Assembly (NCBI GenBank): GCA_016178045.1
Contig: JACOUE010000067.1
Span: 1 to 56,592, forward strand
Direction of reading: 5' to 3'
From: Chloroflexota bacterium
GTDB taxonomy: Bacteria > Chloroflexota > Dehalococcoidia > SM23-28-2 > JACOUE01
DNA: 56,592 bases
Positions 5,346 through 38,101 of the stretch are shown piece after piece. The notes under the pieces were generated by a model, which worked only from the letters and a program-made list of their open reading frames with translations, was not told where the DNA came from and ran no database searches. The translations under genes and the position numbers were made by a program. Position 1 is the stretch's first letter, and each line of letters opens with the position of its first letter.

Positions 5346-5581
5346 ACCGCCCGCGGCCGGTCAGGGTGGAGGCCGGCGAGGACGGACGGCCTATCGCCGT
5401 CTGGCTCTCCGGGTGCCGCTACACTGTTGAGGCGGTGCTGGAGACCTGGCGCATCGACGACGAGTGGTGGCGGCCGCGGCCGGTCTCGAGGGCGTACTAC
5501 TCGCTGCTGCTGGAGGACGGGCGGACGGTGACGGTATACCGGGATCTGGTGAAGGCGGCGTGGTTCAAACAGGAATATTGA
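5294..5581 (+). CDS. DUF6504-like small protein, partner of ImuB/DnaE2
   Basis: The C-terminal 75 residues contain a compact basic and aromatic domain (WRIDDEWWRPRPVSRAYYSLLL...) of the kind found next to imuB/dnaE2 in actinobacteria and Chloroflexota (DUF6504, from memory). Its molecular role is unknown. The start is uncertain: GTG at 5294, after an AAGGTGGTGG stretch, overlaps imuB by 52 bp; GTG at 5366 would trim it to the conserved core. Either way it is probably translationally coupled to imuB. A damaged partial copy of this gene lies at 6096-6160. Confidence 0.7.
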   Translation: MVADTGAAGGAGRIRALNRPRPVRVEAGEDGRPIAVWLSGCRYTVEAVLETWRIDDEWWRPRPVSRAYYSLLLEDGRTVTVYRDLVKAAWFKQEY

Positions 5582-6095: not shown

Positions 6096-6160
6096 ACCTG
6101 GCGCATCCCTGCCTGCCGGCCGGCAGGGACGACGAGTGGTGGCGAAAGCGACCGGTCAGC
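6096..6160 (+). pseudogene. Partial copy of the DUF6504-like gene, split by a 20-bp palindromic insert
   Basis: ACCTGGCGCATC (6096-6107) and GACGACGAGTGGTGG (6128-6142) are identical to contiguous DNA at 5444-5470 in the DUF6504-like gene. Here they are separated by exactly 20 extra bases, CCTGCCTGCCGGCCGGCAGG (6108-6127), containing a perfect 16-bp palindrome. The encoded motif DDEWWRKRPVSR is recognisable, but the insert shifts the frame. Similarity fades after about 6160. There is no start codon or RBS of its own. Confidence 0.7.
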
Positions 6161-6698: not shown

Positions 6699-6793
6699 AT
6701 GATGTCCAACTACGCCGAACTCCACGCCCACTCCAACTTCTCCTTCCTCGAGGGCGCCTCGCACATCGAGGAGCTGGTGCTGCGGGCGCGGGA
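6699..6793 (+). pseudogene. 5' stub of a dnaE2 gene
   Basis: The stub encodes MMSNYAELHAHSNFSFLEG... for about 31 residues. This is the same PHP-domain start as the complete dnaE2 at 7541, with a shared uninterrupted block CACTCCAACTTCTCCTTCC and beyond. Homology stops at 6793, two bases before the vapC stop codon. The copies differ at several positions, so this is an older or foreign allele rather than a fresh duplication. The true frame is open only because it runs antisense through vapC. Confidence 0.85.
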
Positions 6794-6794
6794 G

Positions 6795-7220
6795 CTACTG
6801 AGGCCCCGCCGCCGACAGCCATTCTACGGGGACGACGCCTTCGACCTGGCTGAAGTCGGGGTCGCCGGTGACGACAGGGGCAGCCAGACGCTGGGCCAGG
6901 GCAGCGGCGAAGCAGTCAGCGTAGCCGATGCCGCTGACTGCTTTAAGCGATCCGGCCATCAGAGCCAACTCCAAGTCCACGTCCGCTATCTCCACGCCGA
7001 ATTCTTCCACCCGTCCCAGCATCTCGTGCGCGTGCTCCAGTCCACGCTCTCGAATCGCCCGATAAAAGACTTCGCCAAGGTTCACCGTAGTGATACTCAA
7101 GGCGATCTCGCCAGCCCGGGCCTGCTCGAGCAATTCTCGTACACGAGCGCCAGCGGTTTCAGCTCGGAAGAACGCGAGAAGCGCGAAGCTATCCAGGACA
7201 AAGTGTGGTTTATTGATCAC
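6795..7220 (-). CDS. VapC-type PIN-domain toxin (ribonuclease)
   Basis: The 141-residue PIN domain shows the expected acidic residues: Asp in VLDSFALLAFF, Glu in NLGEVFYRA, Asp in GYADCFAAALA and Asp in VTGDPDF. PIN toxins cleave RNA, often tRNA or rRNA, and are neutralised by the partner antitoxin. It overlaps the antitoxin gene upstream by 4 bp (7217-7220), the usual VapBC arrangement. Its stop codon abuts the dnaE2 stub, so the pair sits exactly between two dnaE2 5' ends. Confidence 0.9.
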   Translation of the reverse strand: MINKPHFVLDSFALLAFFRAETAGARVRELLEQARAGEIALSITTVNLGEVFYRAIRERGLEHAHEMLGRVEEFGVEIADVDLELALMAGSLKAVSGIGYADCFAAALAQRLAAPVVTGDPDFSQVEGVVPVEWLSAAGPQ

Positions 7221-7483
7221 GAGAGCGGTCTAGGTGGCGGCAGGTCGCGCTCTTCACGCTCCAGTTCCTCTTGCCGGTCTTCCAGCAGGCCCTTCGTCAT
7301 CGAAGGCCCTCCCTTGAACATCCCGTACGCGGCTGCGATCGGGTCCTTTGCCACAGGGACTATCGCTATGGTGCGCCCGTATTCAATGACGTGCACCCTG
7401 TCTCCCGGCTTGATCCCGTGCCGCTCCCGGATCTCTTTCGGGATCACCACCCAGCCTTTCTTAGAGACTGTCACCGTGGACAT
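7217..7483 (-). CDS. AbrB/SpoVT-fold antitoxin, VapB-type
   Basis: The 88-residue protein begins with a swapped-hairpin AbrB domain (VSKKGWVVIPKEIRERHGIKPGD), which binds DNA and represses its own operon in this family. The charged C-terminal tail (EDRQEELEREERDLPPPRP) is the likely toxin-binding segment. ATG at 7483 lies 57 bp from the dnaE2 ATG on the other strand, so the two genes share a divergent promoter region. Confidence 0.9.
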   Translation of the reverse strand: MSTVTVSKKGWVVIPKEIRERHGIKPGDRVHVIEYGRTIAIVPVAKDPIAAAYGMFKGGPSMTKGLLEDRQEELEREERDLPPPRPLS

Positions 7484-7540: not shown

Positions 7541-10500
7541 ATGCCTCCCTACATTGAACTGCACTGCCACTCCAACTTCTCCTTCCTCGAGGGCGCCTCG
7601 CACGTCGAGGAGGCGGTGCTGCGGGCGCGGGATCTGGGGTACGAGGCCCTGGCCCTCACCGACCACGACGGCCTCCACGGGGCGATGGAGTTCGCCCAGT
7701 GCGCCCGCGCCTGGGGGCTGCGCCCCATCACCGGCGCCGAGGTCACGCTGGCCCCGCCTTCGCCCCCCGCCGGGAACAAGGAACAGAGAACAAGGTCCAA
7801 GGAGCACGGCGCGGCCTCTTGCTCAGAGCGGCAGGTGGCCCACCTCACTCTGCTCTGCGAGACGCAGCGGGGCTACGCCAACCTCTGCCGCCTCCTCAGC
7901 CACGCCCACCTCGACCATCCCCGCGGCGAACCCTGGGTGGAGCCGGAGGTGTTAGCAAACCACGCCGAGGGGCTCATCGCCCTCTCCGGCTGCCGGCGGG
8001 GCGAGGTGCCGTCGCTGGTCGCCCAGGGGCGCTACCGGGAGGCGGAGGAGGCGGCCCGCCGCTACCTCCAGTGGTTCGCCCAGACGGGCGCCCGTAGTGG
8101 CGGGCCGGGCAACTTCTTCATCGAGCTCCAGGACAACCTGGTGCACGGCGACGCCCGCCGCAACCGCGCCCTGGCCGACCTGGCGGAGCACCTCGGCGTC
8201 GGCACTGTCGCCACCGGCAACGTCCACTACCACGTGCGGGAGCGCCACCGTCTCCAGGACGTGCTGGTGGCCATCAAGCACCGCACCACCCTGGACGCCT
8301 CGCACCGCCTGCGCCGCGAGAACTCAGAGTACTACCTGAAGCCGCCCGAGGAGATGGCCGAGCGGTGGCGCGACTACCCGGAGGCCATCGCCAACACGCT
8401 GCGCATCGCCGAGCGCTGCCAGTTCGACCTCACCCGCGACCTCGACTACCGCTTCCCCGATTACCCAGTGCCCGCGGGCGAGACGCCCGACTCCTACTTG
8501 CGAAAGCTCTGCTACCGCGAAGCCGAGCTGAAGTACGGCCGCATCAAACCCCAGGTGCGCGACCGCCTAGAAGAGGAGCTGGCCCTAGTGGAGCGCCACG
8601 GCCTGGCCGGCTTCTTCCTCCTCCACCGCGAGATCCTCCAGCTGGCCTACCGGGTGGCGGAGGAGGTCCGCGGCCGCCCCTCGCTGGCCCCGCCGGGCCG
8701 CGGCCGCGGGTCGTCCGTGGGGTCGGTCATCTGCTACCTGATCGGCCTCAGCCACATCGACCCCATCGCCAACAACCTCTTCCTGGGTCGCTTCCTGAAC
8801 GAGGAGATGGCCTCCGTCCCCGACATCGACCTCGACTTCCCCCGCGACATCCGCGAGAAGCTGATCCTCCGCATCTACGAGCACTTCGGGAAGGAGCACG
8901 TGGGCCTCGTGGCGACCTTCCCCACGTACCGCATCCGGGGCGCGGTACGGGAGGTGGGGAAGGCACTGGGCCTGCCGCCCGCCGAGCTGGACCGGCTGGC
9001 CAAGGTCAGCGAAGGCGGCTCCGCCCGCAGCATCCGCGAAGAGATGGCCCGCCTGGCCCACTACCGCGACAAGCTGAACGCCCCCCTCTGGCGCCACCTG
9101 GCCGACCTGGTGGAGGAGATCGCCGGCTTCCCGCGCCACATTAGCCAGCACGTGGGCGGCATGGTCATATCGTCGAAGCCGCTGGTGGAGCTGGTGCCCC
9201 TGGAGCAGTCGGCCATGCCCGGGCGCGTCCTGATGCAGTGGGACAAGGACTCCGTGGACGACGCCCGCATGATCAAGATTGACTTCCTGGCCCTGGGCAT
9301 GCTCTCCGCCGTCGACGAGTGCCTCGACCTCATTGAGCAGCAGCGGGGGAAGCGCATCGACCTTTCGCGCATCGACTTCCAGGATGAGCGGGTGTACGAC
9401 TCCATCTGCCGCGCCGACACGATGGGCGTCTTCCAGGTCGAGTCGCGGGCCCAGATGCAGACGCTGCCCCGCGTGCGGCCGCGCTCCCTGGACGACCTGA
9501 CGGTGGAAGTGGCGATCATCCGCCCGGGGCCCATCGTGGGCGGCGCCGTCAACCCCTACATCCGGCGCCGCCTGGGCCGGGAGCCCGTCACCTACGACCA
9601 CCCCTCGCTGGAGCCGGTGCTGACGGAGACGCTGGGCGTCGTCCTCTTCCAGGAGCAGGTGCTCCAGGTGGCGATGGCCCTGGCCGGCTTCAGCGCTGGC
9701 CAGGCGGAGAGCCTGCGCCGGGCGATGAGCCGCAAGCGCTCGCGGGAGGCGATCGCAAAGCTCAAGCAGCAGTTCATCGAGGGCTGCCTGGGCAACGGCG
9801 TGTCGCAGCAGACGGCGGAGACGGTGTTCGCCAAGATCGCCGGCTTCGCCGAGTTCGGTTTCCCCAAGGCCCACGCCGCCGCCTTTGGCCTGCTGGCCTA
9901 CCAGTCGGCCTGGCTCCGCACCTACTACCCGGCGGAGTCCCTCTGCGCCTTGTTCAACGCCCAGCCCATGGGGTTCTACGGGCCCCACGTGCTGGTGAAC
10001 GACGGCAAGCGCCACGGCGTTGACGTCCTGCCGCCCGACATCAACCGCAGCGGGGCGAATTGCACTGTAGAGGTGCCGGCAGACGATGATGGACCGCCCA
10101 TCCTACGTAGGGACAGACCTTTAGGTCTGTCCGAGGGTCTGTCCGCGGACAGATCTTCAGACCTGTCTCTACACTCTCCTGGCGACCTGAAGGTCGCCGC
10201 TACACCCCTTTCCTCCGTAGGGGCGGCCTTTAGGCCGCCCGCAGGGGAGGGGAACAGCATCGTTCGCATCGGCTTCCGCTACGTCAAGGGCATGAGCGAG
10301 GCAACAGCGCGGGAGGTGGAGGAGGGGCGGGGGCGGGGCGGGGAGTTCCGCTCGCTGTTCGACTTCGTGGAGAGGACGCGGCTGAAGCGGGAGGCGATCG
10401 AGAACCTTATCGCCTGCGGCGCCTTCGATTGCTTCGGGCTGGAGCGGCGGGAGCTGCTGTGGCAGCTGGGCCTGGTCTACCGCTCGGACGGCCGCAACGC

Positions 10501-10993
10501 CGCCCAGCGCCAGCTGGCCCTGCCCCTGCCCACGGAGCAGGACATGCCCGGACAGGCGGGGTTCGAGCTTGCCCCCATGACGGAGTGGGACCGCATGGTG
10601 GCGGACTACGCCGTGCTGGGCCTCTCGCCCTCGTACCACCCAATGGCCTTCCTGCGCCCCGGCCTGCACGAGGGCGTGGTGCCCAGCAACCTGCTGCCCT
10701 CGCTGCCGGACGGCGCATCGGTAGATACGGCGGGGATGGTGGTCTGCCGCCAGCGGCCGGGCACGGCCAAGGGGTTCGTCTTCCTGGTGCTGGAGGACGA
10801 GTTCGGCCTGATGAACGTGGTCGTGAAGCCGGGCCTGTATGAGCGACAACGCTCGCTGGTGCGCACGGAGCCGTTCCTGCTGGTGCACGGGACGCTCGAG
10901 CGGCGGGACGGGACGGTCAACGTGGCGGCGAAGCGGTTCACACCCCTGCGGCCCAACGGCGCCGTCGCCCCGGAGGCGCACAACTTCGGGTAG
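7541..10993 (+). CDS. dnaE2: Error-prone DNA polymerase III alpha subunit DnaE2
   Basis: The 1150-residue C-family polymerase starts with a PHP domain (ELHCHSNFSFLEGASHVEE). It carries the catalytic aspartates in PDIDLDFPRD after GRGSSVGSV, the (HhH)2-type region, and a C-terminal OB fold (GMVVCRQRPGTAKGFVFLVLE). The length and lack of further C-terminal domains fit DnaE2 rather than the replicative DnaE1. DnaE2 copies damaged DNA together with ImuB. Two stretches are foreign to the family: about 25 residues near 78-103 (NKEQRTRSKEHGAAS; nt 7772-7848) and about 55 residues near 850-905, encoded by stacked palindromes at 10111-10240. Both keep the frame. The last 32 coding bases are duplicated at 12981. 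Confidence 0.93.
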   Translation: MPPYIELHCHSNFSFLEGASHVEEAVLRARDLGYEALALTDHDGLHGAMEFAQCARAWGLRPITGAEVTLAPPSPPAGNKEQRTRSKEHGAASCSERQVAHLTLLCETQRGYANLCRLLSHAHLDHPRGEPWVEPEVLANHAEGLIALSGCRRGEVPSLVAQGRYREAEEAARRYLQWFAQTGARSGGPGNFFIELQDNLVHGDARRNRALADLAEHLGVGTVATGNVHYHVRERHRLQDVLVAIKHRTTLDASHRLRRENSEYYLKPPEEMAERWRDYPEAIANTLRIAERCQFDLTRDLDYRFPDYPVPAGETPDSYLRKLCYREAELKYGRIKPQVRDRLEEELALVERHGLAGFFLLHREILQLAYRVAEEVRGRPSLAPPGRGRGSSVGSVICYLIGLSHIDPIANNLFLGRFLNEEMASVPDIDLDFPRDIREKLILRIYEHFGKEHVGLVATFPTYRIRGAVREVGKALGLPPAELDRLAKVSEGGSARSIREEMARLAHYRDKLNAPLWRHLADLVEEIAGFPRHISQHVGGMVISSKPLVELVPLEQSAMPGRVLMQWDKDSVDDARMIKIDFLALGMLSAVDECLDLIEQQRGKRIDLSRIDFQDERVYDSICRADTMGVFQVESRAQMQTLPRVRPRSLDDLTVEVAIIRPGPIVGGAVNPYIRRRLGREPVTYDHPSLEPVLTETLGVVLFQEQVLQVAMALAGFSAGQAESLRRAMSRKRSREAIAKLKQQFIEGCLGNGVSQQTAETVFAKIAGFAEFGFPKAHAAAFGLLAYQSAWLRTYYPAESLCALFNAQPMGFYGPHVLVNDGKRHGVDVLPPDINRSGANCTVEVPADDDGPPILRRDRPLGLSEGLSADRSSDLSLHSPGDLKVAATPLSSVGAAFRPPAGEGNSIVRIGFRYVKGMSEATAREVEEGRGRGGEFRSLFDFVERTRLKREAIENLIACGAFDCFGLERRELLWQLGLVYRSDGRNAAQRQLALPLPTEQDMPGQAGFELAPMTEWDRMVADYAVLGLSPSYHPMAFLRPGLHEGVVPSNLLPSLPDGASVDTAGMVVCRQRPGTAKGFVFLVLEDEFGLMNVVVKPGLYERQRSLVRTEPFLLVHGTLERRDGTVNVAAKRFTPLRPNGAVAPEAHNFG
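10111..10240. repeat. Cluster of four perfect palindromes inside dnaE2
   Basis: There are four perfect inverted repeats: arms GGACAGACCT/AGGTCTGTCC at 10111-10132; TCTGTCCGCGGACAGA at 10138-10153; arms GGCGACCT/AGGTCGCC at 10181-10198; arms GGGCGGCCT/AGGCCGCCC at 10221-10240. Three share a CCT-NN-AGG centre. The stretch is translated in frame as low-complexity protein. Confidence 0.9.
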
Positions 10994-11014
10994 CGCTCGT
11001 CCCTAGCAGGAGCC
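10962..11014. repeat. 53-bp direct repeat, copy 1 (dnaE2 3' end)
   Basis: This copy is identical over 53 bp to 12981-13033. It covers the last codons and stop of dnaE2 plus 21 bp beyond. Together the copies bracket the DUF262 gene. Confidence 0.97.
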
Positions 11015-12831
11015 TATGACGGGCCGGGCCACGCTTTCGCGAACCGGTCCGCGAGCTGACTCCCCCGTTCTCGAATCGCGCTCTCGTCCCAGACACCGGA
11101 TCCGCTGGACAGCAGCGCCTTATTGAGGTGCAGGACGCTATGCTTCGCGAGCTCTTCCCGCTTCACCGCCCATGGGCCGTTGGAGAGCGCAGGGTTGAGT
11201 TTGTCGTTTACGAGCGTGAGATTGCCGATTGTGTGGAGGAGGCGGTTGCGCTGCTGCGCGGCCTCCAGTTCATCTTGCTGATCTAGCGATCCTAGCGGCC
11301 AGTGCTCACGCCAGGCCTGTGGCATAACATGCTCAATCGTGAGGACACCACGTTTGACGTGCTCTTCCTCAGTCTTGGGAGACCGGAGCGCGTCTTCCAG
11401 GCCTTCCAGGATTATCCGGAGGCGTCCTCTCGTGAGGAGCTGGTACACGGGTAGCGAGAGGAAGGCTTCTCTGACTTGTCCATCAGTCGGCCAGAAGCGT
11501 GCGTCGGCCGTCTGAGATGCGAGGAACGGCTCGATGACATCATCAGTCGCCTCGGGACCGGTGACGTTAAGTTGACGCATCAGCTCAAGGAACAGCTTGT
11601 TATAGTCTTTTGTGGTCATCCGACAGATCATGCGACGGACGAGGTAGCTTTCGATCGCCTGGAGAGCACGGTGCAGCCGCCCCTCGCTAAGTTGGTAGCG
11701 ATTTGAAAACAGCCAAAGGATTACTGGGGTCGTGACGCCCGCGTCCATGACTCGCCAACGGTAGAGGAAACTACCCTCCAAAGACCAGTCATCGATGCTG
11801 TTCAAGTCACGGAACGCGTCACCGATCTGTTTAATATCGGCAACGACGTCAGTTATCCGTCCATCAGAGTCCTCGGCGTATCGCCGAAACCTAGGGAAAA
11901 AGTGCGTTGATTGAATCTCATCGGCTGTGCGCATCGTGAGCCAGTAGTTGAGATAGATGTCGATCCTGGGGCGAACCAACCGACCTTGCCGCACCTCGGT
12001 TCGCCACCATTCCTGATCAAACGCTTGCCAGTACCGGTGGTAGACTTCGTCGCCATTGAGGCCGACTTGGGCGGCCATGTGGAGGATCGAATTCTTGATG
12101 AGATCGGAATCGAGCAGCGGGGTGCCGCGGGCGTTCAGCGTTTCAAAGATGATGTTGGCGTCGTCTGTTGACTGAAGGTCGATGACCACCATATTGAGCA
12201 GGCCCATCAAAGCTGTGACGAGCGCCTCAGCGCGACGGTCCGCGAACTCGGACCGCTCACCCAGCCACTGCCGGATCTGTAGTTTGAAGAATTCGTGTGC
12301 TTGAACAATTAGGCTATGCTCGAAGCCGGCAACGACAAGCTCGTTGGACATGGCGCAGCGGAACGCTTGTTGGTCGACCAGAGTGGGCCAGACCTTGAAC
12401 GTATGGTCCGGATCGCTCTCTGCGAAGAATTCATCATTGACGACCAGCTTGCGCAGCTGTTTGGCTTCCTTGGGCCAACCATCCTGCTCCAATACTTCTT
12501 GAGCTGCATCCAGTAGAAGCTGGAGGGTAGCTAGCCGCTGCTGCCCATCGATGACGTGTCTAGTTTCGAGATCCGCTGTCGCCGTCGCCTGCTGCTGGAG
12601 GACTACCGCGCCCATGAAATGCGTGCCCGCATTCTCCTCAGCCAGCGGCCGTTTGTCCTCCCCGAGCCGCTCCAGCTGCTCAAGATACTCCTCCGCGATA
12701 TTTCGGACGTCGTTCCAGAGCGGCTCCCACTGGTCTTCCTGATTCCATACGTAAGGCCGCTGGAAGGTTGGGATAATGTATCGAACGTCCTTCTGGAATA
12801 GCGCTTTCAGGGTGAGGATGTCGGCCTTCAT
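11014..12831 (-). CDS. DUF262/DUF1524 protein (GmrSD-like, putative type IV restriction or defence)
   Basis: The 605-residue protein has an N-terminal DUF262 ParB-like domain with IPTFQRPYVW (about 20-29) and VIDGQQRLATLQLL. A helical middle follows, and then a C-terminal DUF1524 HNH-like nuclease region (LTIEHVMPQAW, then HTIGNLTLVNDKLNPALSN). In the characterised GmrSD enzyme, DUF262 uses NTP and DUF1524 cuts modified phage DNA; whether this protein does so is inference. It is visibly AT-richer than its neighbours. It is convergent with dnaE2, carries its own promoter and sits between two 53-bp copies of the dnaE2 end. The stop codon shares one base with copy 1. Confidence 0.88.
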   Translation of the reverse strand: MKADILTLKALFQKDVRYIIPTFQRPYVWNQEDQWEPLWNDVRNIAEEYLEQLERLGEDKRPLAEENAGTHFMGAVVLQQQATATADLETRHVIDGQQRLATLQLLLDAAQEVLEQDGWPKEAKQLRKLVVNDEFFAESDPDHTFKVWPTLVDQQAFRCAMSNELVVAGFEHSLIVQAHEFFKLQIRQWLGERSEFADRRAEALVTALMGLLNMVVIDLQSTDDANIIFETLNARGTPLLDSDLIKNSILHMAAQVGLNGDEVYHRYWQAFDQEWWRTEVRQGRLVRPRIDIYLNYWLTMRTADEIQSTHFFPRFRRYAEDSDGRITDVVADIKQIGDAFRDLNSIDDWSLEGSFLYRWRVMDAGVTTPVILWLFSNRYQLSEGRLHRALQAIESYLVRRMICRMTTKDYNKLFLELMRQLNVTGPEATDDVIEPFLASQTADARFWPTDGQVREAFLSLPVYQLLTRGRLRIILEGLEDALRSPKTEEEHVKRGVLTIEHVMPQAWREHWPLGSLDQQDELEAAQQRNRLLHTIGNLTLVNDKLNPALSNGPWAVKREELAKHSVLHLNKALLSSGSGVWDESAIRERGSQLADRFAKAWPGPS

Positions 12832-12932
12832 GTCGGTCTGTCCTCCTGCGTCGAGTCATCAGCTTGTAACAGTTCCATCGGAAACCGATCTTCTGTTGCC
12901 CCGTGGTCTAACAAGTCAACGGCAGGCATTCG

Positions 12933-12962
12933 ATAGTGTGCCCAAGAAGCAGGGTGTGTCAA
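12933..12962 (-). promoter_or_regulatory. Promoter of the DUF262 gene
   Basis: On the minus strand TTGACA (12962-12957) and CACTAT (12938-12933) are 18 bp apart, about 100 bp before the start. Both lie inside the inserted segment, so the cargo gene brought its own promoter. Confidence 0.55.
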
Positions 12963-12980
12963 GCGTCCTGCTTCAGACCA

Positions 12981-13033
12981 CCGTCGCCCCGGAGGCGCAC
13001 AACTTCGGGTAGCGCTCGTCCCTAGCAGGAGCC
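12981..13033. repeat. 53-bp direct repeat, copy 2
   Basis: This is an exact copy of 10962-11014. It encodes the dnaE2 C-terminal peptide and stop without the rest of the gene, and runs directly into the cupin gene's promoter. Confidence 0.97.
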
Positions 13034-13075: not shown

Positions 13076-13633
13076 ATGGCCCGCGCGGGCGACGTCATCG
13101 AGAACCAGGTATCAGGGGAGCGGTTCACTTTCCGCAAGACCGCCGCGGAGACCGACGGCCAGTTGTTACAGTTCGAGCTGGCGCTACGGCCCGGCGGCCG
13201 CGTGCCCATCGACCACATTCACTCGAAGCAGGAAGAGCGGTTCGAGGTCATTTCCGGCAGGGCGACCTTTCGAGTCGGCAAGACCGAGCGTGAGCTGACG
13301 GCGGGGGAGTCGGTGGTCGTGCCGCCGGGGACCGCTCACAGCGTCCGCAACGACTCCGGCGAGGAGACGCGGATCGCGGTCGAGTTCCGGCCGGCGATGA
13401 GCACTGAATTCCTCTTCGAGGCCATCTGCCGTCTCGCTGGAGAGGGGAAAGTGAGCAGAAGCGGTCTGCCCAACCCGCTGCGCATGGCGGTCGTGGCCCG
13501 GTCCCTCCGCGATGAGACCTACATGGCCGGGGTGCCGGTCGCCTTGCAGAGGGCGGGCATCGCAGTGATGGCGCCGCTGGGGCGGCTCCTCCGCTACGGC
13601 CCGCCGCTGGCCGGACACGACGGCGGCGAATGA
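13076..13633 (+). CDS. Cupin-domain protein
   Basis: The 185-residue protein has a single conserved cupin barrel: PIDHIHSKQEERFEVISGRATFRVG (motif 1 with metal-binding His and Glu) and VPPGTAHSVRN (motif 2 with His). A C-terminal helical extension of about 70 residues follows (FLFEAICRLAGEGK... LLRYGPP). Cupins bind a metal and act as dioxygenases, isomerases or sensors; nothing here fixes the substrate. The start is well supported by AGGAGGT. Before the DUF262 insertion it would have directly followed dnaE2. Confidence 0.85.
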   Translation: MARAGDVIENQVSGERFTFRKTAAETDGQLLQFELALRPGGRVPIDHIHSKQEERFEVISGRATFRVGKTERELTAGESVVVPPGTAHSVRNDSGEETRIAVEFRPAMSTEFLFEAICRLAGEGKVSRSGLPNPLRMAVVARSLRDETYMAGVPVALQRAGIAVMAPLGRLLRYGPPLAGHDGGE

Positions 13634-13703: not shown

Positions 13704-13844
13704 CTGCCGTACAACTGGGCGTGAATCTGTTTGTAGTTGGAAAAGAGGGAGACCGTGGGAGGGCCGAAAGCCGGGGCGCTTCTGCCGGGCGTCCACAAGA
13801 TCCGCGTCCCCCTGATCGACAGTCCCCTGGGCTGGGTGAACAGC
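13704..13844. repeat. 141-bp direct repeat, copy 1 (orphan 5' end of an MBL gene)
   Basis: This copy is identical to 16398-16538, with weaker similarity extending about 20 bp upstream (GATTGACA). It includes a GTG start (13755) and the first 30 codons of the MBL-fold gene (LLPGVHKIRVPLIDSPLGW), then stops abruptly before the response-regulator gene. Confidence 0.97.
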
Positions 13845-16397: not shown

Positions 16398-16538
16398 CTG
16401 CCGTACAACTGGGCGTGAATCTGTTTGTAGTTGGAAAAGAGGGAGACCGTGGGAGGGCCGAAAGCCGGGGCGCTTCTGCCGGGCGTCCACAAGATCCGCG
16501 TCCCCCTGATCGACAGTCCCCTGGGCTGGGTGAACAGC
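16398..16538. repeat. 141-bp direct repeat, copy 2
   Basis: This copy is identical to 13704-13844. It ends at the same nucleotide (after GGGTGAACAGC) at which the MBL gene becomes discontinuous. Confidence 0.97.
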
Positions 16539-17320
16539 ACAACCACCCCGACCACTACGGGCTGGCCGGCCGCCTGGTGCAGATGGCCCGCTGCGGGCTG
16601 GTCATGCACCGCCTGGACGCCGTCCACATCGACAGCCGCTACGTCGACATACGCGTGCTCCAGGGCGAGATGGAGCAGTGGCTCCGCATACACGGCGTCC
16701 CCCTGGACGAGCTGGCCCCCTTCGTCAAGGCGTCCGAGGCGATCATCGACCGCGTGAACGTCGTCAAGCCGGACTGGGAGGTGGCGGGCGGCGAGCGCAT
16801 CGCCGCCGGGCCGCTGGAGTGGGAGATAATCTGGACGCCGGGGCACTCTTCCGGCCACATCTGCCTCTACGAGCGAAACCGCAAGGCGTTCCTTAGCGGC
16901 GACCACATCCTCAACCCGATCACGCCCAACATCGGCCTCCACGCCGAGGCAATGGGCAACCCCCTGGCCGACTACCTGAGCTCACTGCGCGAGGTGCGGG
17001 AGTATGACGTGGAGCTCGTCCTGCCCGCCCACGGCGACGAGTTCCGCGGCTTCCGCGAGCGCATCGATGAGCTGCTGGGCCACCACGAGGAGCGCCTGGC
17101 GGAGATCCGTTCAGTGCTGGCGAAAGGGCTGCGCACCGCCTACCAGATTGCCTCCCGGATGAGCTGGAACGCGGAAGGCTCCTGGGATGAGCTTCCCCCC
17201 TTCCAGCGGCGCATGGCTACGACGGAGGCCCTCGCCCACCTAGAGCTGCTCCACAGTCGCGGCGAGGTGCGGCGATCTACGGCTGAAGGGGGCGTAATCC
17301 GCTACTCCCTGGGGGGTTGA
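16449..17320 (+). pseudogene. MBL-fold metallo-hydrolase with internal deletion and frameshift
   Basis: The first 30 codons from GTG 16449 (PGVHKIRVPLIDSPLGWVNS) are in one frame. From 16539 the protein resumes in another frame at HNHPDHYGLAG, the HxHxDH metal motif, and continues through GHSSGHICLY, SGDHILN and LPAHGDEF to a TGA at 17320. Intact relatives, such as the MBL at 48070, have roughly 40-60 residues between these points. The segment carrying the first strands is therefore missing, and the frame is broken. As read, it would not make a complete enzyme. The break coincides with the end of the 141-bp repeat. Confidence 0.8.
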
Positions 17321-23927: not shown

Positions 23928-24015
23928 GATCACGGCCCCAGCCGTGATCGATCGATGGAGTCAAGCTTGAATTGCGGCATGTGACTATCCTCGGGTCAGG
24001 GCTGGGGGCCTGATC
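23928..24015. repeat. REPIN-like mini element made of RAYT gene ends
   Basis: A perfect hairpin (arms GATCACGGC/GCCGTGATC, 23928-23949) and a second one (arms GGTCAGG/CCTGATC, 23994-24015) flank DNA that repeats the RAYT start. On the minus strand the ATG at 23980 is followed by MPQFK, as at 24537. This looks like an internally deleted copy of the RAYT unit. Confidence 0.8.
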
Positions 24016-24040
24016 TACCGTAATTTTTTATCTTATTGTA

Positions 24041-24062
24041 GGTCACGGCCCCAGCCGTGACC
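24041..24062. repeat. REP hairpin overlapping the RAYT stop codon
   Basis: Perfect arms GGTCACGGC/GCCGTGACC enclose a CCCA loop. The last codons and TGA of the RAYT gene lie within the hairpin. Confidence 0.85.
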
Positions 24063-24537
24063 CGTCCAGCAGGTCTATTTCAAAGGGCGACTTCTCGCTG
24101 CGAGCATAAGTGCCGCAAGAGGAAAATTCATAGTCTTCAGGCAATGAGACGAGACCATCCTTGACAGGATTTAGATGAATGTAGTTCAAGGCGGCGACGA
24201 ATTGCGCCTCGTCGCGGATCACTCGATCGTAGAAGCGCGATTGCCAGATTGGGCCGCTTATTCGGAGGGCCTCCCGAATCTGTTTACCGGTGAAGCTCTT
24301 GAAGTTGCGCATGATGTCCGAGATGGAGCAACTGCCGGGCGTAATAAGCAAATGGACGTGGTCGGGCATTACCACATAACCGTGGAGCCGAAATCCCATG
24401 TGATCTCGATAGAATCGCAGGTTATCCATGATCATCTGTGACAGACGCGGGTCAGCGAAAAACGCCCGCCGCTCCTTGGTGGCGGTCGTAGCGAAGTAGC
24501 AATGGTCAGGAAGGATGTACCGTTTGAATTGCGGCAT
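24043..24537 (-). CDS. REP-associated tyrosine transposase (RAYT, Y1_Tnp)
   Basis: The 164-residue protein matches the Y1 transposase family: MPQFKRYILPDHCYFATTAT, the metal-binding HUH-type motif MPDHVHLLITPG, then SFTGKQIREA and the region IWQSRFYDRVIRDEAQFVAALNYIHLNPVKDGLV, which carries the likely catalytic tyrosine (YIHLNPV). Such enzymes nick single-stranded REP palindromes and are thought to spread them. It is bounded by two REP hairpins (24041-24062 and 24550-24572) with a mini copy beside it. It sits between hemL and a HAD gene. Confidence 0.93.
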   Translation of the reverse strand: MPQFKRYILPDHCYFATTATKERRAFFADPRLSQMIMDNLRFYRDHMGFRLHGYVVMPDHVHLLITPGSCSISDIMRNFKSFTGKQIREALRISGPIWQSRFYDRVIRDEAQFVAALNYIHLNPVKDGLVSLPEDYEFSSCGTYARSEKSPFEIDLLDGSRLGP

Positions 24538-24549
24538 CTGACCACTTTC

Positions 24550-24572
24550 GGTCAGGGCTGGGGCTCCTGACC
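24550..24572. repeat. REP hairpin upstream of the RAYT gene
   Basis: The arms GGTCAGG-GC and GC-CCTGACC pair around TGGG with a one-base bulge. The HAD gene's stop falls at its edge. Confidence 0.75.
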
Positions 24573-25310
24573 TACCCCTGATCCACAAAGGAGCGGAAGG
24601 AGCTCTTGCAAAGAAGCGACCTTCACGTCGGGCGGCGGGACGCGCCGGGGTCGGCGCAGGCGGAAGCGGTTGACCCAGGCGACCTTCAGGCCGGCCTGCC
24701 GCCCGCCCAGGAGGTCGGGCACCGGGTTGTCGCCCACGTAGAGGATGGACGAGGGCGTCAGGGCCAGGCTCGAGGCCAGGTGGCGGAAGATGGCCGGGTC
24801 CGGCTTGATGGCGCCCGCCCGCTCCGAAGAGACGACGGTGTCGAAGTGGAGGCTGTTCCGCTCCAGGCAGGCCAGGAGGAAGTCGTCGTCGGCGTTGGAG
24901 AGCAGGGCGACCCGGTACCGCGAGCGCAGGGCGTCGAGGATGTCGCGGGCCTCGGGGTAGGCGGGGGCGGTCGCCAGCTTCTCCTTCAGGTAGAGGGCGG
25001 CCTGCCAGGGGTCGCCCTCGAGGCGGAGTCGCTTGAATACGTGCTCGAACTGGCGGGCCCACGCCTCGTCGTAGCGGCTGTAGACGGGCCGTTCGTGGTT
25101 CTCGGCGCGGAAGGCGAGGGCGGCGCGGAGGAAGCGGCGCCAGAGGTCGGCGGCGTCGGCGTCGAGCCTCTGGCGGTCGCAGATCTCGGCCATGGTGGCG
25201 ATGAAGTCCGGCTGGTTGAAGTCGATGACGGTGCCGTAGCAGTCAAACGCAACGGCTCTGATATCAGCCACAGATAGACACAGATTTTTCACAGATTTGT
25301 TGGAGGACAT
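24552..25310 (-). CDS. HAD-superfamily hydrolase
   Basis: The HAD motifs are in order: nucleophile DCYGTVIDF (motif I), LLSNADDDF (motif II), Lys in AGAIKPDPAIF (motif III) and YVGDNPVPDLLGG (motif IV). This is subfamily IA, related to phosphoglycolate phosphatase-like and haloacid-dehalogenase-like enzymes; the substrate is unknown. The first 13 codons (MSSNKSVKNLCLS) derive from a CACAGAT repeat, so GTG at 25271 is an equally likely start. The last residues overlap the REP hairpin at 24550. It lies between hemB and hemL without an obvious heme role. Confidence 0.85.
   Translation of the reverse strand: MSSNKSVKNLCLSVADIRAVAFDCYGTVIDFNQPDFIATMAEICDRQRLDADAADLWRRFLRAALAFRAENHERPVYSRYDEAWARQFEHVFKRLRLEGDPWQAALYLKEKLATAPAYPEARDILDALRSRYRVALLSNADDDFLLACLERNSLHFDTVVSSERAGAIKPDPAIFRHLASSLALTPSSILYVGDNPVPDLLGGRQAGLKVAWVNRFRLRRPRRVPPPDVKVASLQELLPLLCGSGVGQEPQP
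25267..25285 (-). repeat. Inverted repeat, left end of the GxxExxY cassette
   Basis: On the minus strand this reads ATCTGTGTCTATCTGTGGC. It matches 25719-25737 on the plus strand with one mismatch, pointing outward. Confidence 0.85.
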
Positions 25311-35662: not shown

Positions 35663-37084
35663 CTACCTTTCCCACCTCACCTGGAACACGCGCACGGGGT
35701 CCTCGAAGCCGCGGAGGGCCACGTCGCCGCGATCGGCGAAGAGGAAGCCCTTGCCGGCGCACAGCTCCCGCACCGCCAGCGAGGCGAGGACCTCGCCCCC
35801 TTCCGCGTGGGCGGCGATGCGGGCGGCCAGGATCACCGACTGGCCGAAGAGGTCGCCCTCCTCCTCGATGGGCTCCCCGGCGTTGAGGCCGACGCGGATG
35901 TGCAGGGGCTCGCTTTCCGCCGCCGCTCGTGGTGAGCCTGTCGAACCATGAGCGGCCCCTCGCCCTTCGACAGGCTCAGGGCGAGCGGAGATAGCGTCGA
36001 TCCGCGCCGCAAACGCCCGCTGGAGGGCGACGGCGCACTCGACGCCTTTGGTGACGGAGGGGAAGGAGGCCATGAAGCCGTCGCCCATGGTCTTGACCTC
36101 GGTGCCGCCGTGCTCCTTGAGGACGTCGCGGATGATGCGCTCGTGCTCGCGCAGCACCTGGCGGCCCTTTTCGTCGCCCAGGCGCTGCATCATCTCGGTG
36201 TGACCGACGATGTCGGTGAAGAGGACGGTGCGGAGAGCGCCTCCCGCCTGAGAAAAGGCCCGGCGTTGCGGCTCGGAGCCGTCACCCTCCCTCAAGAAGG
36301 CGTCGATGGCGTTGGCCACCGTCTCAGGGTTCGCAAAATCTGTGGTCGCCTCCAATATCAGCAATCGCCCGTTGGGGATGGCCGCGGCCAGTTGTTGCCC
36401 TAGAGCCACCCCCACGGGGAACAGGGTGTCCTCCCGAAACGAGATGACAAGGGTGGGAGCTTTCACCTGCTGAAGAAGACCGGTCACGTCTGAATGCATG
36501 TTCTGTTCGAGGGCCCGGGCAACTACGTCGCCAGAGGTCGACTGTCTGTAGCCTTCTGCCACCCGTAAGTTAAGCTCCGGCAACTCCGTGCCGACGGCCA
36601 TATTGGCAAAGGTGCGGGCAGCGAAATCCCAATTGGCGCGCGCAAGCTGTATCAGGCCCTCCAGCATCTCACGCGAGAAGACATCCAGCACTCGGGCAAA
36701 GGTTCTCGAGAGAATAAGGCGGTGCACTTGCCGGGGATGTCGTGCCGCGTATTCAATGGCCCGCGGGCCCGCCCAAACCGGCCCCCAGAGGGAGAAGCTT
36801 TTCAGACCAGCGGCCCGTACAACGGCCTCGAGATCGCGCACGAGAGCAGCGTGGGACAAGTCGGCGACGTCGCGCTGCGACAAGCCGGTGCCACGCCCGT
36901 CGAAGCGAATGCGCCGGCGCCCTCGCCCGAAACCGGGGAAGGACTGCTGCGGGGTGGCGAACAGGTGGTCGAGGGAGAAGGACCCAATCGCGCCGTGGCA
37001 TATCACCAGCGTCGGCCCCTCGCCCTCGACGGTGTAGGCGATGCGGACGCCGTCCTCCGTGGTGCAGTAGCGGACCTCAGCCAT
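35663..37084 (-). CDS. Alpha/beta-hydrolase-like sensor fused to class III nucleotide cyclase
   Basis: The N-terminal 260 residues follow the alpha/beta-hydrolase fold (TLVICHGAIG, FDGRGTGLS), but the nucleophile elbow reads WGPVWAGP instead of GxSxG, so hydrolysis is unlikely and ligand sensing more probable. The C-terminus is a cyclase (LRTVLFTDIVGHTEMMQRLGD, KTMGDGFMASF, HIRVGLNAGEP). Between cyclase strands a tandem repeat adds ISARPEPVEGRG and STGSPRA in frame. ATG 37084 is preferred over 37114 because similarity begins there. The cyclase half is of the same general type as the first protein of the window. Confidence 0.87.
   Translation of the reverse strand: MAEVRYCTTEDGVRIAYTVEGEGPTLVICHGAIGSFSLDHLFATPQQSFPGFGRGRRRIRFDGRGTGLSQRDVADLSHAALVRDLEAVVRAAGLKSFSLWGPVWAGPRAIEYAARHPRQVHRLILSRTFARVLDVFSREMLEGLIQLARANWDFAARTFANMAVGTELPELNLRVAEGYRQSTSGDVVARALEQNMHSDVTGLLQQVKAPTLVISFREDTLFPVGVALGQQLAAAIPNGRLLILEATTDFANPETVANAIDAFLREGDGSEPQRRAFSQAGGALRTVLFTDIVGHTEMMQRLGDEKGRQVLREHERIIRDVLKEHGGTEVKTMGDGFMASFPSVTKGVECAVALQRAFAARIDAISARPEPVEGRGAAHGSTGSPRAAAESEPLHIRVGLNAGEPIEEEGDLFGQSVILAARIAAHAEGGEVLASLAVRELCAGKGFLFADRGDVALRGFEDPVRVFQVRWER
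35929..35988. repeat. Inverted pair of GCCTGTCGAA repeats in the cyclase domain
   Basis: GTGAGCCTGTCGAAC (35932 onward) and CCCTTCGACAGGCTCAGGGC (from about 35963) face each other and are both read in frame. Confidence 0.8.
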
Positions 37085-37195: not shown

Positions 37196-38101
37196 GTGAG
37201 CGATAAGCCCATCTCCGCCGCTTTCCCCTTCGAGTCGAAGTACGTCGAGGTCGCCGGCTCGCGCATCCACTACGTGGAAGAGGGCGGCGGCGACCCTTCG
37301 ACAGGCTCAGGGCAGGCCCCTATCCTGTTCCTGCACGGCAACCCCACCTCCTCCTACCTGTGGCGGAACATCATCCCCTACGCCGCCCAGGTGGGGCGCG
37401 CCATCGCCATGGACCTCATCGGCATGGGGAAGTCGGACAAGCCGGACATCGAGTACCGCTTCTTCGACCACGTCCGCTACGTGGAGGGGTTCATCGAGAA
37501 GCTCGGCCTGCGCGACATCACCCTCGTCATCCACGACTGGGGCTCGGCCCTGGGGTTCCACTACGCCTCACGGCACGAGTCGAACGTGAGCGGCCTGGCC
37601 TTCATGGAGGCGATCCTGCGCCCCGTCACCTGGGACGAGTGGCCCGAGCAGGCGCGGGCGCTGTTCCAGTCCTTCCGCACGCCGGGCGTGGGGGAGCGCC
37701 TGATCATGGAGCAGAACGTCTTCGTGGAGAACGTCCTGCCCGCGTCGATAGTCCGTAAGCTGACCGACGAGGAGATGGGGCGCTACCGGGCGCCGTTCCC
37801 CACGCCGGAGAGCCGCAAGGCGGTGTGGCGCTGGCCCAACGAGATCCCGGTGAACGGCGAGCCCAAGGACGTGGTGGACGCCGCCCAGGCCTACGCCGAC
37901 TGGCTCAAGCGCACCGACCTGCCGAAGCTGCTCTTCTACGCCCAGCCCGGCGCCCTCGTGCGCGCCGAGATGCTGGAGTGGTGCCGCGCGAACCTGAAGA
38001 ACCTCACGACCGTAGACATCGGGCCGGGTGTGCACTTCGTGCAGGAGGACAACCCCCACCTGATCGGCGGGGAGCTGGCCAAGTGGTACCGGGGACTGTA
38101 G
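37196..38101 (+). CDS. Haloalkane dehalogenase
   Basis: The 301-residue alpha/beta hydrolase has the haloalkane dehalogenase (subfamily II) signature. Nucleophile Asp114 with halide-binding Trp115 lies in VIHDWGSALGF, halide-binding Asn49 in HGNPTSSYLWRNI, acid Glu138 in AFMEAI and base His280 in VHFVQEDNP. It would hydrolyse carbon-halogen bonds to alcohols. The GTG start has AAGGAG upstream. A repeat at 37294-37318 inserts DPSTGSGQA before the first core strand without breaking the frame. The physiological substrate is unknown. Confidence 0.93.
   Translation: MSDKPISAAFPFESKYVEVAGSRIHYVEEGGGDPSTGSGQAPILFLHGNPTSSYLWRNIIPYAAQVGRAIAMDLIGMGKSDKPDIEYRFFDHVRYVEGFIEKLGLRDITLVIHDWGSALGFHYASRHESNVSGLAFMEAILRPVTWDEWPEQARALFQSFRTPGVGERLIMEQNVFVENVLPASIVRKLTDEEMGRYRAPFPTPESRKAVWRWPNEIPVNGEPKDVVDAAQAYADWLKRTDLPKLLFYAQPGALVRAEMLEWCRANLKNLTTVDIGPGVHFVQEDNPHLIGGELAKWYRGL
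37294..37318. repeat. CCTTCGACAGGCTCAGGGC repeat in the dehalogenase gene
   Basis: This copy is identical in core to 25-50 and 35963-35985, but read in another frame, giving PSTGSGQA. Confidence 0.85.

Follow-up and report, generated by a model that had tools for sequence, protein, structure and literature searches.

An exact 53-bp repeat of the dnaE2 3' end around a GmrSD-type gene: a possible scar of integration with one-sided homology in a Chloroflexota genome

The genome of an uncultured Chloroflexota bacterium (Dehalococcoidia, order SM23-28-2) carries a GmrSD-type restriction-like gene between two identical 53-bp copies of the 3' end of the polymerase gene dnaE2. The repeat may well be the scar of an integration that combined homology at one gene end with an illegitimate join on the other side, a reading to which we assign a probability of about 0.5. 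It is preferred because, at parallel loci, the repeated copies are alleles and one junction is native in relatives. The locus is instructive as a record of a known process and does not represent a new kind of element.

Structure and content of the repeat-flanked segment

The window is the whole stretch of DNA that was analysed (56,592 nucleotides, contig JACOUE010000067.1). The features of the locus are as follows.

6702-6796, plus strand: orphan dnaE2 5' fragment (MSNYAELHAHSNFSF..), a companion scar, 91% identical over 80 bp to the intact dnaE2 5' end
6795-7483, minus strand: PIN gene (6795-7220; Pfam PIN) and AbrB-type antitoxin gene (approximately 7217-7483; assigned by resemblance to locus L091 of a relative only), between the fragment and intact dnaE2
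7541-10993, plus strand: dnaE2, ImuC-type error-prone polymerase alpha subunit, 1150 aa, intact (Pfam DNA_pol3_alpha, finger, PHP, HHH_6 and OB)
10962-11014, plus strand: repeat copy A, the final 32 bp of dnaE2 including the stop codon, plus 21 bp
11014-12831, minus strand: GmrSD-type (DUF262 + DUF1524/HNH) type IV restriction-like gene, 605 aa (Pfam PF03235 and PF07510; PADLOC models Orf5 and mREase_IV)
11015-12980: inserted segment, 1966 bp, GC 57.4% (window tiles of equal size: mean 67.0%, sd 3.6%)
12832-12980, minus strand: non-coding stretch of 149 bp upstream of the GmrSD gene
12981-13033, plus strand: repeat copy B, a dnaE2 3'-end remnant that runs into the cupin gene's leader (TATAATAAG at about 13037)
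13076-13633, plus strand: cupin-domain gene, 185 aa, intact (Pfam Cupin_2, 1e-14)

The two copies form a direct repeat identical at 53 of 53 positions with a start-to-start spacing of 2019 bp, a match far above chance (blastn E = 2e-20 within the window), and a search allowing up to 3 mismatches found the 53-mer at these two places only in the 2.03-Mb genome. The first-pass annotation had described an exact duplication that takes in the dnaE2 stop codon (10991-10993) and 21 bp beyond it, around an insert with one gene that leaves both neighbours intact; all of this is borne out by the alignment, the open reading frames and Pfam, with dnaE2 retaining a full set of DnaE domains. On the left the segment abuts the repeat closely, with the GmrSD stop codon including the final base of copy A. 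In the present sequence, the right junction (12980/12981) has no obvious shared bases. Resident DNA shows no deletion at this presumed illegitimate side: both neighbours are whole and 53 bp are duplicated.

The GmrSD gene is full length, encodes a single chain and is the sole gene between the copies. Its N-terminal GmrSD_N domain (DUF262, PF03235) scores 115 bits against a cut-off of 33 (5.4e-33), and its C-terminal GmrSD_C nuclease domain (DUF1524, PF07510) scores 91 bits against a cut-off of 23 (8.4e-26). From these domains, the product is most likely a modification-dependent endonuclease of the GmrSD type, in one chain, directed against phage DNA. It resembles the GmrSD (DUF262-DUF1524) type IV restriction enzymes in having both domains in one full-length chain encoded by a lone gene, but is at most 59% identical to the nearest homologues found. 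An earlier suggestion that the insert brought its own promoter is not supported: the 149-bp non-coding stretch upstream of the gene is present but contains no sigma-70-type consensus.

Among 25 species of the order examined, the GmrSD gene occurs in this genome and is absent from the other 24, and the segment DNA has no counterpart in 40 relatives (longest match 49 bp). The closest homologues are from a Candidatus Binatia bacterium MAG (59% identical) and from a Chloroflexi MAG and an Actinomycetes MAG (53%); plasmid homologues exist, all below 60% identity, none of them a close source. Flanking repeats were not found around GmrSD homologues in other genomes. Since the gene is found in none of the other species examined and the segment is GC-poor (57% versus 67%), it is a lineage-specific and probably foreign gain. 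The identity of the copies had been taken to indicate a recent event, but 53 identical bases are insufficient for this, as our estimate still allows a divergence of several percent; the unadapted base composition is the better support for recent acquisition.

That the empty site consisted of dnaE2 followed by the cupin gene is plausible because copy B continues straight into the cupin leader. This arrangement, proposed in the first-pass annotation, was not seen in relatives. Orthologues of dnaE2, which lie behind imuB across the order (about 70-73% identical by tblastn in several genera), were detected in nine or more of its members, and none of these dnaE2 loci carries the present cupin gene. 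One relative (G005), whose genome has no other clear dnaE2, contains an orphan dnaE2 3'-end fragment of 31 codons at 61% identity (L102, 2349-2441).

Parallel loci with allelic copies

The 53-bp case is the 3'-end mirror image of several 5' scars in the same genome. Multi-base codon changes (GCC/ATT, GCC/TGC, CTG/GCG) set the orphan 5' fragment upstream of dnaE2 apart from the intact gene, and the fragment retains the residues of relatives. On another contig, a pycB 5' fragment starts MAIS while intact pycB starts MGVK, and at L152 (8981-9851) a second PIN-AbrB-like pair lies between cupredoxin-like 3' ends reading VHPTVML and VHPTQMV. Judged by these sequences, the dnaE2 5', pycB and cupredoxin-like pairs are distinct alleles rather than decayed copies.

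Two of the flanked segments also have an ordinary neighbourhood in relatives. The PIN-AbrB pair lies immediately upstream of dnaE2, without any repeat, in two other genera (G015 and G022; L091 5016-5731 and L097), and a PD-(D/E)XK gene lies immediately upstream of FmdB in 14 of 14 relatives, while in the present genome the two genes come after an FmdB 5' fragment. Because these junctions are native in relatives, one side of the flanked segment is ordinary, and it is the fragment that is anomalous. The names PD-(D/E)XK, FmdB, pycB and cupredoxin-like, all on other contigs, were read from translations and not from a family-library search.

The three safe 5' remnants (L150 15561-16618, L030 3736-4039 and window 6702-6796) end 91, 71 and 95 nt past the start codon, too few values to set against chance. 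Two further apparent 5' fragments (L041 at 16945 and L060 at 11433) proved to be full paralogues and were dropped. Within the window, positions 6123-6157 match 5451-5485 over 35 bp at 83%. They are probably a piece of the DUF6504-like gene that follows imuB (DDEWWR.RPVSR) and may represent one more scar in this cassette.

Local repeats in the genome and the order

A survey for repeat pairs of at least 40 bp and at least 85% identity, 0.1-6 kb apart and not inside one gene, covered 619 kb from this genome and 987 kb from its relatives (800 kb plus 187 kb of dnaE2 loci). Nine pairs were found in the former and 11 in the latter, or about 1.1-1.5 per 100 kb, and most repeats are short (about 40-170 bp, with one of 326 bp). 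A gene terminus is touched by 11 of 19 pairs against 4.4 expected (P about 5e-4, with crude gene calls); the 19 leave out one pair in the dnaE2 loci and include an unsafe 141-bp pair, without which the count is 10 of 18. Such an excess would be expected of one-sided integration, whose survivors should lie on gene ends. The GmrSD event is thus not unique: comparable gene-end repeats recur in the genome and in the order.

The payloads between the repeats are unrelated (GmrSD, PIN-AbrB, lipoprotein, PD-(D/E)XK), and repeats at different loci have, by eye, no common sequence. No payload-encoded or site-specific enzyme is therefore needed. In Escherichia coli, Staphylococcus aureus and Streptococcus pyogenes, direct repeats flank 10-18% of the small variable segments and are mostly shorter than 30 bp (PMC2884548), a measure by which the present repeats are long.

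Other repeats were recorded in the course of the survey. At L024 (3457-9684), 326-bp repeats (91%) enclose 5.6 kb that includes a tyrosine-recombinase-like gene, and at L154 (16710-19380) two 75-bp sequences resembling copies of a tRNA gene, 98.7% identical, surround a 2.5-kb segment. The direct repeats at 23967 and 24524 of the window flank, on a reading of the sequence only, a REP-associated tyrosine transposase-like gene (23967-24576); they were set apart as a different kind of structure and not used as a parallel case. A dispersed repeat, CCCTTCGACAGGCTCAGGGCGAGCGGAG, occurs at 25-52, 35963-35990 and 37294-37321 of the window, the third copy at 79%.

The neighbouring 141-nt repeat

Close to the locus, an exact 141-nt repeat (13704-13844 and 16398-16538) surrounds a two-component system. 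Two contig ends of the MAG overlap by exactly 141 nt, which suggests that the assembler used k = 141. The MBL gene (16449-17320) lacks about 135 nt and is frameshifted exactly at the end of the repeat, and the enclosed two-component genes are old in the order. The 141-nt repeat is possibly an assembly artefact; with its length equal to the overlap, the MBL gene broken at its end and its enclosed genes old, it was set aside as a parallel event. Because it is unsafe, the clustering of three repeats within 10 kb carries little weight.

Proposed route of integration

The incoming DNA would have carried the GmrSD gene adjoining a dnaE2 3' end, tail to tail in the donor. The incoming dnaE2 end would pair and recombine homologously with resident dnaE2. 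The non-homologous end, on the promoter side of GmrSD, would attach by an illegitimate join roughly 53 bp within the homologous stretch, so that part of the resident dnaE2 tail would survive ahead of the cupin gene. In general form, DNA carrying a neighbour gene and part of a gene G would cross over within G, and a remnant of resident G would persist. Either homology-facilitated illegitimate recombination of linear DNA or a single crossover after recircularisation could give the same product, and the short repeat is slightly more in keeping with the linear piece. ComEC is present in the genome, so DNA uptake would be possible on the basis of gene content. The donor arrangement, the roles of RecA and of DNA uptake, and a route shared by the 53-bp case and the parallel cases are parts of the scheme that we infer.

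Homology-facilitated illegitimate recombination has been described in naturally competent Streptococcus pneumoniae, Acinetobacter baylyi and Pseudomonas stutzeri (PMC3240628), and it is likewise known from E. coli conjugation (PMC3240628). On the proposed reading, the present locus would resemble it in its one-sided homology, its illegitimate other join and its independence of the payload, but the published products mostly delete resident DNA at the illegitimate side, whereas here a 53-bp gene end is duplicated. In E. coli, DNA with homology to one gene end gave mostly gene-end duplications of 109-950 bp around the insert and rarely an illegitimate product; the duplications were attributed to recircularisation and a single crossover (PMC3240628). 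As at the GmrSD locus, part of the homologous gene end stands on both sides of the insert, but these duplications involve 109-950 bp and an engineered plasmid rather than 53 bp in an uncultured lineage. In the T6SS immunity arrays of Vibrio cholerae, old gene ends stand beside newly gained modules and have been explained by the same kind of recombination (PMC5361080). The likeness lies in the displaced old gene ends adjoining a new module; those remnants are, however, tied to a fast-evolving effector locus, whereas the scars described here are scattered over housekeeping and other genes.

Several points speak against one-sided homology. The 53-bp copies are identical, so the locus by itself does not distinguish a remnant contributed by a donor from a precise duplication; no donor carrying GmrSD beside dnaE2 was found; and the classic form of homology-facilitated illegitimate recombination typically produces deletions, not duplications (PMC3240628). 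One of the FmdB differences (G to R) is plausibly the result of decay, so that copying with later decay would also fit that case. A single crossover needs just the short homology and would be indistinguishable here.

Alternative explanations

The main rival to one-sided homology, although a rather unlikely one, is capture of the GmrSD DNA at a staggered double-strand break: two nicks 53 nt apart, filled in during ligation (for example by Ku/LigD), would give an exact 53-bp target duplication from a donor without homology. The exact identity of the copies fits this, no donor with dnaE2 homology is known, and a Ku gene is present in the genome and in 10 of 25 members of the order. Similar repeat pairs, however, occur in the relatives G001 and G008, in which no Ku gene was detected (both genomes are incomplete), and the parallel copies differ by multi-base codon changes instead of decay, with one junction native in relatives. 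The same distinct alleles and native junction weaken the target-site duplication that the first-pass annotation had implied. Signs of a transposon were also sought; the segment holds its single GmrSD gene and no transposase, and no inverted repeat pairs its ends. If the incoming DNA recircularised and shared 53 bp with dnaE2, a single (Campbell-type) crossover would leave the same structure, and such integrants were the main product in E. coli, where 56 of 60 clones had gene-end duplications (PMC3240628). The efficiency of this route grows with the length of homology, so that long repeats would be expected where mostly short ones are seen, and it is judged unlikely, with the proviso that long repeats may be lost by deletion.

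Gene 3' ends restored by a repeat are typical attachment sites of integrative elements, and in principle the 53-bp copies could be attL and attR, bounding an integrase-free island that has decayed or is mobilised in trans. This is very improbable: no recombinase or integrase gene lies within 11015-12980, the 53-mer occurs nowhere else in the genome, the relatives of GmrSD are without such flanks, and no core common to the loci is evident. There is an even slighter chance that the structure is an artefact of the metagenome contig, a suspicion raised by the neighbouring repeat whose 141 nt equal the contig-end overlap in the assembly. A misjoin at the 53-bp repeat is unlikely because 141-mers would cover the repeat together with unique flanks, and the contig is otherwise coherent here. 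The four 5' scars in the genome end 71, 90, 91 and 95 nt past the start codon (the 90-nt one is unsafe). It is very doubtful that an unrecognised, payload-independent process in the order inserts genes one at a time at gene ends, each time leaving behind 50-95 bp of the resident end.

Implications

If integration with one-sided homology is the right explanation, short gene-end duplications could be read as scars of one-sided recombination in uncultured bacteria, and they would show how compact genomes acquire single defence and toxin-antitoxin genes in the absence of mobile elements. Direct repeats on both sides of a segment, moreover, do not always mark it as the inserted part: at the FmdB locus, the flanked gene is in its ancestral neighbourhood and the surplus piece is the fragment.
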